Made by a program: the position numbers and the translations under genes
The notes under the pieces: generated by a model
The model's input: only the letters and a program-made list of their open reading frames with translations
What the model was told of the DNA's origin: nothing
The model's database searches: none
Shown here: piece after piece, positions 174 through 12,299 of the stretch
How the letters are laid out: each line of letters starts with the position of its first letter
Numbering within the stretch: position 1 is the stretch's first letter
NCBI GenBank assembly: GCA_035528375.1
Contig: DATKYS010000082.1
Location: forward strand, 1-14,021
Source of the DNA: a bacterium
GTDB lineage: Bacteria; RBG-13-66-14
DNA length: 14,021 bases
Reading direction: 5' to 3'

Positions 174-890
174 ATGCCCGTCGGGTTTAGAGTCGAGCTG
201 CCGATCTACGAGGGGCCCATGGAGCTCCTCGTCGAGCTCGTCGAGCGCCAGGAAGTCGAGCTGGCCCAGGTGGACGTGGCGCTGGTCTGCGACGAGTTCC
301 TGACCTACGTGGGCCGGGCGGGCGAGCTGGAGCTGGACCTGGCGGGCGAGTTCCTGGTCATGGCGGCGACGCTGGTGGAGCTGAAGGCCCGGCTCCTCTT
401 CCCCCGGACGCCGGGCGATGTCGGCGAGAGCCGGGACGCCGCCTCGGACCTCCTGGAACAGATCGCCCTCTACAAGCGCTTCAAGGACCTGGCCGCGACG
501 CTGCGGGAGATGGAGGCCGCCCAGCTCGAGCTCTTCCCGCGCGGCGCGCCGGCCGATTTCGCCGCCCTCCGCCGCCCGCTGGAATCCTCCGAGGACCTGG
601 TCCTGCTGGTCGAGGCCTACGGCCGCCTTGTCCCGACCGACATGGACGAGGGCTTCCTGGCCGAGGAGAAGGTCACCATCGCCGAGCGGATGGAGGAGTT
701 GCAGACGGTCCTGCTCGAGCGGGGTCGGGTGTCCCTGGGCGAGCTCATCCCGGACCGGCGTCGCCGGGAGTACGTGGTGGTGACCTTTCTGGCCCTGCTG
801 GAGCTCGTGCGGCTGAAGAGGGTCCGCCTGGCCCAGGCCGAGCCCTACCTCCGCCTGTGGATAGTCCCCCCCGACGAGGCGCCGTCTTGA
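174..890 (+). CDS. scpA: segregation and condensation protein A (ScpA)
   Basis: ScpA is the kleisin that bridges the two SMC heads and, with ScpB, forms the bacterial condensin that compacts and segregates chromosomes. The 238-residue product has the family N-terminus: a beta strand running into YEGPMELLVELVERQ (residues 12-26, the usual F/Y-EGPLDLLL motif), then a helical region with the conserved FLVMAATLVELKARLLFP stretch at about 61-78. The C-terminal winged-helix segment (about 180-232) contains TFLALLELVRLKRVRLAQ, typical of kleisin contact with the SMC head. Length is normal. The ATG at 174 has only a weak ribosome-binding site, but the next Met would remove the conserved motif. The stop overlaps the start of the downstream scpB-cmk gene by 4 bases (TTGA), so the two are probably translationally coupled. 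The assignment is firm. Confidence 0.95.
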   Translation: MPVGFRVELPIYEGPMELLVELVERQEVELAQVDVALVCDEFLTYVGRAGELELDLAGEFLVMAATLVELKARLLFPRTPGDVGESRDAASDLLEQIALYKRFKDLAATLREMEAAQLELFPRGAPADFAALRRPLESSEDLVLLVEAYGRLVPTDMDEGFLAEEKVTIAERMEELQTVLLERGRVSLGELIPDRRRREYVVVTFLALLELVRLKRVRLAQAEPYLRLWIVPPDEAPS

Positions 891-2146
891 ACGAAGATTC
901 CACCCCTCCCCAGGAAAACCTGTTCGCCGGGCTGGAGGCGATTCTCTTCGCGGCGGACGCGCCGGTCTCCATCCACCGCCTGGTGCGGGCCTTGGGCCAC
1001 CCCCGGAGCCGGGTCGAGGATGCGTTGAGCGCCCTGGGGCGGCGTTACGCCGAGAACGACCGCGGGGTGGAGCTGGTGGAGCTGGGCGGCGGCTGGCAGC
1101 TCTTCACCAAGCGCCGGTTCTCCCGGGCCGTGGAGAAGGCCCTGGGCCAGCCCCCGCGCAACCGGACCCGCCTCTCCGCCGCGGCCCTGGAGACCCTGGC
1201 CATCATCGCCTACCGTCAGCCCATCACCCGGGGCGAGATCGAGGCCATCCGCGGGGTGGACACATCGGGCACCCTGGCGAGTCTTTCCGAGCACAAGCTG
1301 ATCGAGGTCTCCGGCCGCGCCGAGAGCGCCGGGCGCCCCAACCTCTACTCCACCACCGAGGGCTTTTTGAACTTCTTCGGCCTGCGGCACCTGGGCGAGC
1401 TGCCCCAGCCGGGGGCGGAGGGGGAGGTCCCGGAAGAGGGAGACGCCGTCCGCATCGCCATAGACGGTCCCGCGGGGTCGGGTAAGTCCACCGTGGCGCG
1501 GCTGGTGGCCTCGCGGCTGGGGCTGGTGTACGTGGACACCGGGGCGTTCTACAGGGCGCTGACCTGGCTGGCCCTCGAGCGCGGGACGGACCTGGACGAT
1601 CCGGCGGCGCTGGTGGAGCTGGCCCGGGACGCCGAGCTCGAGCTCGAGGTGGAGGACCACACCGCCCGTCTCCTCCTCGGGGGTGTCCCCGTGGGCGCCG
1701 AAATCCGCTCCCCCCGGGTCACCACGGCCATCAAGCGCGTGGCCGACCTCCCGCCGATCAGAAACCTGGTGAACGGGCGCATCCGGGAACTGGCCCGGCG
1801 GCTGCCCGGCGGGGTGGTGGCCGAGGGCCGCGACATCGGCACCCTCCTCTTTCCCGACACGCCCCATAAGTTTTACCTGACGGCGTCGGTGACCGAGCGG
1901 GCGCGGCGGCGACTGGAGGACCATCGGGCCCGGGGCGAGGCCGTCACCCTCCCCGAGCTCGAGGCGCAGATAGTCGAGCGGGACCGCGCCGACTCCACCA
2001 GGCAGTACGGGGCGCTCACCCGGCTGCCCGAGGCCCTCGAGATAAACACCACCGGGATGACCATCCAGGAGGTCGTCGAGGCGGTCATCGGGGGGGTGGA
2101 GCTCCGCCGCGCCGAGCCGGCGTCCGATACGCCGGGGACCGACTGA
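887..2146 (+). CDS. ScpB-cytidylate kinase fusion protein
   Basis: One uninterrupted 419-residue frame joins two proteins normally made separately. Residues about 10-172 are ScpB (condensin subunit with two winged helices), recognised by ETLAIIAYRQPITRGEIEAIRGVD and by GRPNLYSTTEGFLNFFGL. After a linker of about 14 Pro/Glu/Gly-rich residues, about 187-410 is CMP/dCMP kinase. It shows a P-loop GPAGSGKST (194-202), the VAEGRDIGTLLFPD substrate-binding motif and the arginine-rich lid RDRADSTRQYG. Cmk phosphorylates CMP/dCMP with ATP in pyrimidine nucleotide recycling. No ATG, GTG or TTG lies just before the kinase part, so separate translation is unlikely. I chose the TTG at 887 because GAGG (876-879) sits 7 bases upstream and it overlaps the scpA stop as TTGA. 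A GTG at 857 would add 10 residues but lacks a ribosome-binding site. In many genomes scpA, scpB and cmk are neighbours, often with rluB between; rluB is absent here. Confidence 0.93.
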   Translation: MNEDSTPPQENLFAGLEAILFAADAPVSIHRLVRALGHPRSRVEDALSALGRRYAENDRGVELVELGGGWQLFTKRRFSRAVEKALGQPPRNRTRLSAAALETLAIIAYRQPITRGEIEAIRGVDTSGTLASLSEHKLIEVSGRAESAGRPNLYSTTEGFLNFFGLRHLGELPQPGAEGEVPEEGDAVRIAIDGPAGSGKSTVARLVASRLGLVYVDTGAFYRALTWLALERGTDLDDPAALVELARDAELELEVEDHTARLLLGGVPVGAEIRSPRVTTAIKRVADLPPIRNLVNGRIRELARRLPGGVVAEGRDIGTLLFPDTPHKFYLTASVTERARRRLEDHRARGEAVTLPELEAQIVERDRADSTRQYGALTRLPEALEINTTGMTIQEVVEAVIGGVELRRAEPASDTPGTD

Positions 2147-2896: not shown

Positions 2897-3520
2897 GTGA
2901 GGATGGCCGTTGCTTTCGCGGCGCTCATGCTGTTCCTCTGCGCCGGTTGCGGCGACGACCAGCCCCAGCACGTGGCCTCACCCACCGGTGAGCCCGTCCA
3001 GGTCGAGGCCGCCCCCGAGGTGGTCCGCAAGAACTTGTCGGGCACCGGCGCGCTGGTCATGGCCGAGACGGGGGACTTCAACCTGTACCCCCAGGCGCTG
3101 GACGAGGCGCTGGCGGCTATCGCGGCCAAGGGCATCGAGCCGCTGGGCGACCCCATGGGAATACTCGACCCCGAGTCCGCCGGCCTCCCCCTCGCCGAGC
3201 GGCGGTGGGAGGTGCTGATCCCGGTTCCCAACGACACCTTTCCCCCGGTGGGGTTCACCTACCGGGACGTCGAGGGCGGACCGTCGGCCATGTTGAGCTT
3301 CAAGGGCCCCTTCAAGCGGGACCGCATCCCCCTCTACGAGACGCTCGATTCCTGGGTGTACGCCCACGGATTCGTGCCCGCCGGTCCGCCGATCGAGGTG
3401 TACCACTGGGGCGAGAACCTGCCCGAGGAGGAGCGCGTCACCGAAATCTACCTCCACATCGGCGAGCCCGGGGGTGAACCGGAACCGGCCGCCGAGCCGA
3501 CGGGGGAGGGGACGGAGTAG
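2897..3520 (+). CDS. second lipoprotein with GyrI-like domain (paralogue)
   Basis: The 207-residue product is a diverged tandem copy of the preceding gene. They share TGDFNLY/TGDYDLF, the DPMGI/DPFGV turn and the ending VYHWGE...VTEIYLHI. The GTG at 2897 is preceded by GAGGAGGT (2885-2892). An ATG two codons later (2903) is a possible alternative. Residues 1-17 form a signal peptide followed by Cys18; the lipobox (C-A-G-C) lacks Leu at -3, so lipidation is likely but less certain than in the neighbour. The GyrI-like domain spans about 45-190 and keeps the Glu of the E-x-Y motif (IEVYHWGE), which the first copy has lost. The C-terminal tail is rich in Pro, Glu and Ala. With a gap of only 27 bases the pair is probably one operon. 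The function beyond ligand binding outside the cytoplasm cannot be read from the sequence. Confidence 0.78.
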   Translation: MRMAVAFAALMLFLCAGCGDDQPQHVASPTGEPVQVEAAPEVVRKNLSGTGALVMAETGDFNLYPQALDEALAAIAAKGIEPLGDPMGILDPESAGLPLAERRWEVLIPVPNDTFPPVGFTYRDVEGGPSAMLSFKGPFKRDRIPLYETLDSWVYAHGFVPAGPPIEVYHWGENLPEEERVTEIYLHIGEPGGEPEPAAEPTGEGTE

Positions 3521-6119: not shown

Positions 6120-6252
6120 ACGCGGGGGCGATGCGGTCGAGCCGGGAACCCAGACCCTCCCCCGGACGTAATTGAAAAGCCCCGGGAAGCGAATGCTTCG
6201 CCGTGGGTTATGGTCGCGGCCCGGAAAAGCCGCCGGTCAGCGGAGGACTCCC
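6120..6252 (+). promoter_or_regulatory. structured 5' leader of about 130 nt
   Basis: The predicted transcript start near 6120 leaves an unusually long leader. It contains an imperfect direct repeat, GAAAAGCCCCGGGAAGCG at 6174-6191 and GAAAAGCCGCCGGTCAGCG at 6224-6242. A small hairpin, GAAGC/GCTTC, lies at 6186-6199. The second repeat runs into the GGAGG ribosome-binding site (6242-6246), so pairing that involves it could affect translation. I recognise no known riboswitch. Confidence 0.4.
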
Positions 6253-6807
6253 ATGCACAAGGCCATCATCCCAGCGGTCATACTCGTCCTTTTCGCCGGC
6301 CTCGGCTGCGATCTGTTCAGCATCCCGCCGGGCGGCGGCGGCGACGACCAGAGCGAGTGGCAGGACCCGCTCACGCCCCGGGCCGTCATCGAGGACATCC
6401 AATGGTGCTACAACAACGCAAACGGACCCTTCTACGGGACTCTCCTGGACCACGACAATTTCGTCTTCTACTTCGATCCGTCGGACGTGGGCGGTGATCA
6501 TGATATCCCCATCTCCTGGACGTACCAAGCCGAGACTACGGCCACGCAGAACCTCTTCATCGCCGTGGGCGCCGCAAACATCACCCTGACACTGGATTTC
6601 AGCGACAGTGGTGACACCGAGCCCGGTCCCTATGACACCTCGTTCGATATCTCCACCGTGAAATACTTCCTCCGCGTGGTCGTAACGGAAGAGGATATAA
6701 TCTATCAGGCCAATGAACAGGCCAATTTCGAGCTCTCCAAGTTCCCCGACGACAAAGGCATGGATCGCTGGTGGCTCACCAAGTGGTGGGATTTAAAAAA
6801 CGGTTGA
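6253..6807 (+). CDS. predicted exported NTF2-like lipoprotein (paralogue 1 of 3)
   Basis: The 184-residue product begins at the ATG at 6253, six bases after GGAGG (6242-6246). A signal peptide (1-18) ends at Cys19 in AGLGC, an imperfect lipobox. The mature part follows the pattern of an NTF2-like fold: an N-terminal helix (PRAVIEDIQWCYNNAN), then DHDNFVFYFDPSD, and a run of beta strands ending in DRWWLTKWWDLKNG. This fold assignment is my inference. The pattern W-C/A-Y-N/D-N/H...LD-x-D/G-F-x-F/Y recurs in the two minus-strand genes at 6872-7405 and 7474-7998, so all three are paralogues. NTF2-like folds range from enzymes to binding modules and no catalytic residues can be named. It is transcribed alone from a strong promoter and ends at a shared bidirectional terminator. 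Confidence 0.75.
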   Translation: MHKAIIPAVILVLFAGLGCDLFSIPPGGGGDDQSEWQDPLTPRAVIEDIQWCYNNANGPFYGTLLDHDNFVFYFDPSDVGGDHDIPISWTYQAETTATQNLFIAVGAANITLTLDFSDSGDTEPGPYDTSFDISTVKYFLRVVVTEEDIIYQANEQANFELSKFPDDKGMDRWWLTKWWDLKNG

Positions 6808-6871: not shown

Positions 6872-7405
6872 TCAATTGCCGATGTCCCACCACTTCCAGA
6901 GCCACCACCGCGGCTGACCGCGCCAGAAGCCGTCCTTCCGCGTGAGGAAGTTGGCGAAACCGTCCGCCCGGTACGTCACGTCCCAGGTGACCACGGTCAA
7001 GAGGTAGTCCACGCCGTTCAAATCCCACACCTCATCGCCCGGTCCCGGCTCCCGCTGATCCCCGAGGTCCATGTCGAGCGTGATGGCCCCTTCGTCAACG
7101 GAATCGAAAAGGTTCTGCGTGGCCTTCAGCTCGTCGTCGTAGCCCCAGGAGGACGGTGTGCCGCTGTCATGGACGTCCCGGGAGTCGAAGTAGAAGGTGA
7201 AGTCGGGGTCGAGCATGTCCGTGTACCAGTTGATGTCCTGGTTGTTGTAGGCCCACTCGATGCCCCGAATGACGCCCGCGGGGCTCGTCGGCTCGGGCGG
7301 AGGGTCGGTCGGCGTGGTCCCGGGAATCTCGCAGATGCTGAATATGCTCAGCAGGGAGACCTGGGAGATGAAAAGCGGCAATGTTCGGCCCGGAATGCGT
7401 CTCAT
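6872..7405 (-). CDS. predicted exported NTF2-like protein (paralogue 2 of 3)
   Basis: The 177-residue product starts at an ATG (complement of 7403-7405) with AAGGAGG four bases upstream. Residues 1-24 look like a signal peptide ending at Cys25 (IFSIC). Ile at -1 is not a good lipobox, so lipidation is doubtful. The mature domain runs PAGVIRGIEWAYNNQD, then LDPDFTFYFDSRDV, then ELKATQNLFDSV, and ends PRWWLWKWWDIGN. It is closest to the plus-strand paralogue at 6253-6807: both share the double-Trp ending, ATQNLF and the EPGP turn. It is the second gene of a leftward pair, 68 bases after the third paralogue. The specific function is unknown and the NTF2-like fold is inferred from the strand and helix pattern. 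Confidence 0.73.
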   Translation of the reverse strand: MRRIPGRTLPLFISQVSLLSIFSICEIPGTTPTDPPPEPTSPAGVIRGIEWAYNNQDINWYTDMLDPDFTFYFDSRDVHDSGTPSSWGYDDELKATQNLFDSVDEGAITLDMDLGDQREPGPGDEVWDLNGVDYLLTVVTWDVTYRADGFANFLTRKDGFWRGQPRWWLWKWWDIGN

Positions 7406-7473: not shown

Positions 7474-7998
7474 TCAGGGCAGTTCGAGGCGCTCGAAGCC
7501 GACGAGCACCAGCAGCCGCCAGCAGGGTCCTTCTCCCGGATTTTTCGCCGCGCGGAAATCGAAGCGGCCTGCCACGGCGTAGGTCATGTCCCCGATGAGG
7601 ACGCGGAGGGTGTAGGCCACGTTGTTGATGATGAATTCCGTGTCGCCGGGGTCGGGCTCGGTGTCCCCGCATTCGCTTGTGTCCAGTGTCAGGTCAATAT
7701 CGCCCTCGCCGCAGGCGGCGCAGAGCTCGGCGAAGTAGGCCAGTTCCTCCTCGCGGCCCCACTCAAGGTGCTCCGGTCTCCCGTCCTGTTCTCGGTCGAG
7801 GATGTAGGTGAAGCCGGGGTCCAGGATTTTTGCGTACAGCGCCTCGTCCTGGTGGTCGTAGCACCACTCGAAGGTTTCAACCAGGCCGAGGGGTGTGTCG
7901 GGCTTTGGGGGCTCTTCGGGGGTGGTCGTCGGGCTCAGGCAGCCGGCGCCCAGCAAGAAGAGGGCGGTCGGGAGCACGTAAAACGTCCCGCGTCGCAT
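7474..7998 (-). CDS. predicted NTF2-like lipoprotein (paralogue 3 of 3)
   Basis: The 174-residue product starts at an ATG (complement of 7996-7998) after a GGAGGAGGCGCC ribosome-binding region. The GAGGCGCCATGCG stretch around this start is the same as in the downstream paralogue. A signal peptide (1-19) ends at Cys20 in LLGAGC. A Thr/Pro linker precedes the domain, which begins PLGLVETFEWCYDHQD and continues LDPGFTYILDRE. The central part contains extra cysteines (LCAACGEG, SECGD). The C-terminus departs from the RWWLxKWWD ending of the other two and instead reads CWRLLVLVGFERLELP, the typical start of SnoaL/NTF2-like final strands. It is the first gene of the leftward pair; its promoter candidate lies near 8171-8199. 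The function is unknown. Confidence 0.72.
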   Translation of the reverse strand: MRRGTFYVLPTALFLLGAGCLSPTTTPEEPPKPDTPLGLVETFEWCYDHQDEALYAKILDPGFTYILDREQDGRPEHLEWGREEELAYFAELCAACGEGDIDLTLDTSECGDTEPDPGDTEFIINNVAYTLRVLIGDMTYAVAGRFDFRAAKNPGEGPCWRLLVLVGFERLELP

Positions 7999-11419: not shown

Positions 11420-11539
11420 GGCGCGAGCAAGTCTCGTAAAAACATGGAGTTATGCGGAGGTTCCCGACGTTCGTTCCCGTGAGTCACGAGCGGTCGAGGG
11501 CGGTTGAGCCCGATTCACACGGATGAAGCCGAAGGTGTG

Positions 11540-11914
11540 ATGGAGATGGGCGAGGAGACTTTCGTCCCGGCGAGGGAGCGTCAGCGGCGGCGGGCAGTGG
11601 AGCTCCGCGGGAAGCTGCTGGCGGCCCTGCCGCGCCTCGTGGCCCGACGGCCGGAGCTGGTGGTCCTCTTCGGCAGCGTCGCCCGGGGGCGGGCCTTCGA
11701 CGACTCCGACATCGACGTCCTGGTGGTGCTGGAAGGGGTCGAGGGGAACCCGCCGGAGAGGGCCCTGGTCGTCTGGAAAATCCTCGACGTCCACGAGGTG
11801 GTCAACGCCTTCGTGCTCACGCCGGAGGAGTTCGCCCGGGCGCGGGAGGAAAGCCCCCTGGTGCGGACCGCCCTCGCGGAGGGGGAGGTTTTATACGATG
11901 CGCGAGATGCCTGA
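11540..11914 (+). CDS. MNT-type nucleotidyltransferase, partner of HEPN protein
   Basis: The 124-residue protein has the minimal nucleotidyltransferase signature LFGSVARGRAFDDSDIDVLVV (43-63): Gly45-Ser46 and the metal-binding Asp57 and Asp59. In MNT-HEPN systems this protein is the antitoxin, and some members add AMP units to the HEPN toxin. The third acidic residue expected in the later strand is not obvious; the region reads EVVNAFVLTPEEF (86-98). It may therefore be a binding-only member, or use another residue. The ATG at 11540 is preceded by GAAGG; an in-frame TTG at 11504 and the ATG at 11546 are alternatives. It overlaps the HEPN gene by 17 bases. Both were probably inserted between lysS and lolC. 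Confidence 0.85.
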   Translation: MEMGEETFVPARERQRRRAVELRGKLLAALPRLVARRPELVVLFGSVARGRAFDDSDIDVLVVLEGVEGNPPERALVVWKILDVHEVVNAFVLTPEEFARAREESPLVRTALAEGEVLYDARDA

Positions 11915-12299
11915 AGAGAGAGGCCGATACTGGCTGAAAGAGGCGGAGAGTAACATGTCGCTGGCGCGGTTGGTCGCCGAAAGGGAGTATTACTCCTTCG
12001 CCTGTTTCCATGCCCAGCAGGCGGCGGAGATGGCCCTGAAGGCTTTTTTGGCGTTTCGGGGCGAGGTTGACATGCGCACGCATTCGCTGCACCGGTTGCT
12101 CGCCGTCGTGGGTAGGTACGATGATGAAGCGTCCCGTCTGGATGAATCGGGCCGGGCGTTGGAGGAATACTACACGGCCACCCGCTACCCCAACGGCATC
12201 GGCACCGGGGCGCCCAGCGACTACTTCAACGAGCGCCAGTCCCGCGAGGCCCTCGCGGCGGCCGGCGAGGTGCTCGGCTTCGTCAAGGAACGGATTTAA
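11898..12299 (+). CDS. HEPN-domain protein, probable toxin of an MNT-HEPN pair
   Basis: The 133-residue protein is almost wholly helical and matches the HEPN family: RYWLKEAESNMSLARLV (10-26), YYSFACFHAQQAAEMALKAFLAF (31-53), THSLHRLL (61-68), EEYYTATRYP (89-98) and a last helix SREALAAAGEVLGFVKERI. HEPN proteins of this size, next to a MNT protein, are typically RNases or RNA-binding toxins. The usual R-x4-6-H active site is not in the TRYPNG region. The only R-x4-H is Arg60-His65 in RTHSLH, a position often conserved for other reasons, so RNase activity is unproven. The ATG at 11898 has GGGAGG nine bases upstream. Its stop is three bases before lolC, so it is probably co-transcribed with that essential operon. 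Confidence 0.85.
   Translation: MREMPEERGRYWLKEAESNMSLARLVAEREYYSFACFHAQQAAEMALKAFLAFRGEVDMRTHSLHRLLAVVGRYDDEASRLDESGRALEEYYTATRYPNGIGTGAPSDYFNERQSREALAAAGEVLGFVKERI

Follow-up and report, generated by a model that had tools for sequence, protein, structure and literature searches.

The window analysed here, a stretch of 14,021 nucleotides, carries on its forward strand (+) scpA at 174–890, which encodes the kleisin partner of ScpB (Pfam SMC_ScpA, E 6.9e-32), and directly after it a gene at 887–2146 in which scpB and cmk are fused. Translation of 887–2146 (+) gives 419 amino acids without a stop, and the gene is further delineated by Pfam and NCBIfam matches and by four other full-length orthologues and one partial one. 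Its start is likely a TTG at 887, which overlaps the TGA of scpA as TTGA; a GTG at 857 is a possible but less likely alternative. Similar overlaps between scpA and the fusion gene were found in the orthologues (TGATG in L003; ATGA in L004 and L005). The TTGA overlap suggests that translation of the two genes is coupled.

The N-terminal part (residues 11–174; 917–1408, +) is ScpB. It matches Pfam SMC_ScpB (PF04079) over residues 16–174 (profile positions 3–159 of 160, E 5.6e-53, 179.2 bits against a cut-off of 27.4), NCBIfam TIGR00281 (124 against a cut-off of 89.2), and the PDB ScpB chains 4i98_B (E 3.9e-35) and 3w6j_B. A variable, Pro/Glu/Gly-rich linker (residues 175–187; 1409–1447, +) leads into the cytidylate kinase part (residues 188–402; 1448–2092, +), which is supported by PDB Cmk matches and conserved columns as well as by Pfam Cytidylate_kin (PF02224; residues 190–402, profile positions 1–207 of 211, E 1.3e-62, 211.8 bits against a cut-off of 26) and NCBIfam TIGR00017 (208.1 against a cut-off of 135.55). 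In the window, no in-frame ATG, GTG or TTG was found between residue 161, within ScpB, and residue 203, in the P-loop helix. An earlier note, made from the letters of this DNA, had proposed that ScpB and Cmk lie in one polypeptide with no start codon ahead of the kinase part, and both points hold: the frame is single and uninterrupted, and its two domains are complete.

The columns conserved in 13 stand-alone ScpBs are nearly all kept in the fusion, the exceptions being Q71, K75 and T129. In an AlphaFold2 model (mean pLDDT 89, pTM 0.60), the ScpB part matches the ScpB of the ScpAB core complex (3w6j_C, TM 0.88) and the Cmk part matches 2h92 and 1kdo (TM 0.89 by target), while the linker falls below a pLDDT of 50 at residues 177–182. 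This model is consistent with two well-folded, independent domains on a flexible linker.

Other genes in the window were also recorded. Two tandem paralogues (2183–2869 and 2897–3520; 36% identity) combine a lipoprotein-like start with a GyrI-like domain. Three further adjacent paralogues (6172–6807, +; 6872–7405, −; 7474–7998, −), which share 32–46% identity and have no Pfam match, are read as putative secreted proteins or lipoproteins. At 11504–12299, a nucleotidyltransferase gene overlaps a HEPN gene in a layout of the MNT/HEPN toxin-antitoxin type.

We then compared the fusion across the family of uncultured bacteria, in the phylum Candidatus Coatesbacteria, to which the window belongs. 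The fusion locus was found in six of the seven genomes, and the same junction recurs in frame in all six; the locus is missing from the seventh genome (G001), which is 70% complete. A search for the same architecture in the lineage was one of the checks that the earlier note had proposed. Five copies are full-length, the other four being 92, 82, 73 and 68% identical to that of the window. In the sixth genome (G003; locus L006 on G003:C369), ScpB, linker and P-loop lie in one frame, followed by a gap of about 220 bases and a frame change within the kinase, so that the gene is either broken or badly assembled at this point. Pairwise comparison of the five full-length copies gave dN/dS values of 0.19–0.43 for ScpB and 0.20–0.47 for Cmk over all pairs. 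The linker is only 15–62% identical and stays in frame throughout; its own dN/dS ratios cover just 11–14 codons and carry little meaning. These substitution patterns point to purifying selection on both domains and to drift in the linker. With both domains under such selection and the junction in frame, the fused protein is therefore maintained.

The own genome of the window (listed completeness 100%) contains a single Cytidylate_kin match, and the search for further cmk or scpB genes in it found none. Its Smc is full-length, with both SMC_N halves in a frame of 1344 codons (G000:C98). The fusion is thus the only source found for ScpB and Cmk in this genome, and any ScpB or Cmk activity in the cell must come from it.

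Whether the kinase half is active was judged from its residues. The equivalents of E. coli Cmk K18, Y40, R41, R110, R131, D132, R181, D185 and R188 are kept in all five fused kinases; K18 is the P-loop lysine, and the residues from Y40 onwards are those reported to contact CMP or phosphate in Cmk of the E. coli type (PMC3603445, PMC7259600). The site equivalent to E. coli Ser101 (K283 in the window; codon 1733–1735, +) holds K, Q, R, K and R in the five fused kinases, and Ser (60/61) or Thr (1/61) in other Cmks. Ser101 is here a family-wide column in the NMP-binding domain, not a documented catalytic residue, and nothing relevant on it was found in the searchable literature. I291, L321 and A376 of the fused kinase likewise deviate from near-invariant columns, and the P192 equivalent is Ala. 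Since each of the five fused kinases covering this region has lost Ser101, one cannot be sure that the kinase half is active. By spacing (nine positions before Arg107), E. coli Ser101 would correspond to Ser98 of the T. thermophilus Cmk, which is reported to contact the lid residue Arg174 on closing (PMC7259600). At the lid position taken to correspond to Arg174, the five fused kinases all carry Ala, and 30 of 61 others carry Arg. The Ser101 change may reflect a swapped lid contact. A role of Ser101 in base specificity, which was also considered, is weakened, since the papers cited here give base contacts to Ser36, Arg110, Asp132 and further residues, and the counterpart of Ser101 in T. thermophilus touches the lid. 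As far as sampled (G001 is missing), the change and the fusion arose on one stem, an association for which we make no causal claim.

The gene order in related genomes bears on the origin of the fusion. Elsewhere in the phylum, four families have scpA, scpB, rluB and cmk as separate genes in this order, with trpS upstream of scpA in the sister families where the stretch extends that far; in G007, the scpB gene is divided between two contig ends. The same order occurs in Acidobacteria (L036, L042, L045, L047, L048, L058 and others), Nakamurella (L062) and Treponema (L067), some of these non-Coatesbacteria loci having a further gene or a gap ahead of cmk. The earlier note's remark that the genes scpB and cmk often lie side by side is thus nearly right, except that rluB usually lies between them in Coatesbacteria and in the acidobacterial, actinobacterial and spirochaete loci examined here. 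In the fused family, no rluB match was found at the fusion locus and trpS was not seen upstream. An RluB/RsuA-type gene with about 39% identity to outgroup RluB lies on another contig (G000:C25); it may be rluB in a new place or a paralogue of older origin. With trpS as well as rluB not seen at its former place, the fused-family locus was reshaped more than once, in an order of events that we infer. In another member of the phylum (G012), rluB and cmk share one open frame (L020, 1852–3327) with GTG and ATG at the junction, which may be a fusion of another kind.

An arrangement close to the fusion was found in a spirochaete (G1290, Spirochaetota). Here scpA, scpB and cmk follow one another with rluB absent between them, then a gene with an S1 domain that reads like rpsA; scpB and cmk lie in one frame (L097, 1477–2769, minus strand), separated by a TGA and 6 nt. 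With this in-frame TGA between the genes, G1290 was rejected as a second ScpB-Cmk fusion; its arrangement is the one expected a step before fusion.

We next asked how rare the fusion is. No further ScpB-Cmk fusion was found among about 1,880 sampled genomes: 347 from the phylum of an Acidobacteriota locus (G014), 386 relatives across the domain, 398 from the phylum of G019 (Lachnospiraceae), 373 from the phylum of G017 (Treponema) and 377 from the phylum of G018 (Verrucomicrobia), sets that are samples rather than a census and may overlap slightly. A cut-off of 1e-50 was used, and the read-through match to G1290 reached E 6e-67, so that a distant fusion would be detectable. Ten regions of other genomes in which cmk or scpB lies within a long open frame were inspected, and none had ScpB and Cmk in one frame. 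The long frame of G414 is PanC-Cmk-like, and some others near cmk or scpB are, in our reading, apparent GC-rich shadow. A 437-aa frame on the minus strand of L108 (G1090) reads to us as Cmk followed by a PlsC-type acyltransferase-like part. No relevant description of ScpB with cytidylate or CMP kinase was found in the searchable literature.

Overall, we consider it quite probable that operon neighbours fused into a real bifunctional protein with two independently working domains. An ancestral scpA-scpB-rluB-cmk cluster would have lost rluB from its middle, leaving scpB and cmk adjacent in a shared frame; once the stop of scpB was lost, the two would have been joined. In condensin, the ScpB half would still partner ScpA and Smc, while CDP/dCDP would still be made by the Cmk half. 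We infer from these sequences that the fusion is made as one chain with both halves active, and that functional coupling was not its driver. What speaks against this reading is that the fusion persisted over family-level divergence, whereas a neutral fusion need not persist. The replaced Ser101, with the doubt it casts on kinase activity, and the repeated reshaping of the locus also count against it.

Two working products could instead arise from the one frame, by linker cleavage or from an internal Cmk start. This seems unlikely: although the linker has low confidence in the model and a GTG stands just ahead of the P-loop in three of the five orthologues (L003, L004, L005), neither the window nor L002, the full-length relative closest to it, has an ATG, GTG or TTG between ScpB and the P-loop helix, and the linker alignment contains no conserved motif. 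Functional coupling, in which a Cmk tethered to condensin puts CDP/dCDP production at the nucleoid, or nucleotide state tunes ScpB, and which selection favoured, is to our mind rather improbable. The fusion is kept family-wide wherever the locus is present, and the kinase has a lineage-specific change at the otherwise near-invariant Ser101 position, both of which would fit coupling. However, the linker is variable and of low model confidence, the sampled genomes hold the fusion in no other lineage, Cmk has also joined PanC, AroA, Der and a PlsC-like protein, partners that share no theme, and a simpler genomic route is available through an arrangement of the G1290 type. Thus, of the two options left by the earlier note, mere co-expression fits, but a nucleotide supply physically bound to condensin is unsupported, given the linker, the sufficiency of the genomic history and the unrelated fusion partners of Cmk. 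Still harder to credit is that the kinase half was retuned for condensin, so that the change at the Ser101 position would affect how the lid closes or which substrate is used, and the kinase would respond to ScpA/Smc or bring (d)CDP synthesis to the chromosome. Finally, a sequencing or assembly error joining two genes is rejected as next to impossible: the genomes are apparently metagenome-assembled and G003 has its gap and frame change in the kinase, but the junction recurs in frame in six genomes of at least three genera, two of them from different projects (RBG_13_66_14 and CSMAG_1439), with purifying selection on either side, which removes the hidden stop or frameshift near 1400–1450 that the earlier note had named as its refutation.

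Fusion of operon neighbours thus remains the preferred reading, and the novelty is genuine but modest; so far, nothing points to a new function. The case is a clean one of operon neighbours becoming one protein, with the ancestral order in sister families, the single stop in a spirochaete and then the fusion. It also warns that gene fusion alone does not prove that two functions are coupled. Should the kinase sense or serve condensin after all, the supply of (d)CTP precursors would be linked to Smc-ScpAB in a new way.

Compared with known systems, the fusion resembles stand-alone ScpB (PF04079, TIGR00281) in its complete domain, which shares about 44% identity with the ScpB of 4i98 and 3w6j, and in having scpA directly upstream, but its C-terminal tail is swapped for linker and kinase. 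Like stand-alone bacterial Cmk (PF02224, TIGR00017), the kinase is full-length and keeps the known substrate-binding residues; unlike it, it has no start codon of its own, and carries K/Q/R for Ser101 and Ala for P192. PanC-Cmk (PRK13477), AroA-Cmk (PRK11860) and Cmk-Der (PRK09518) also join Cmk to another housekeeping protein in one chain, whereas the partner here is ScpB, a structural condensin subunit and no enzyme. The fusion scored 231.8 bits against the PanC-Cmk model (cut-off 524), and 153 and 152 against the other two models (cut-offs 943 and 953); judged by these scores, ScpB-Cmk belongs to none of the three, the Cmk half alone matching. With the scpA-scpB-rluB-cmk cluster, the fusion locus shares genes and order minus rluB, and differs from it in that scpB and cmk are joined.
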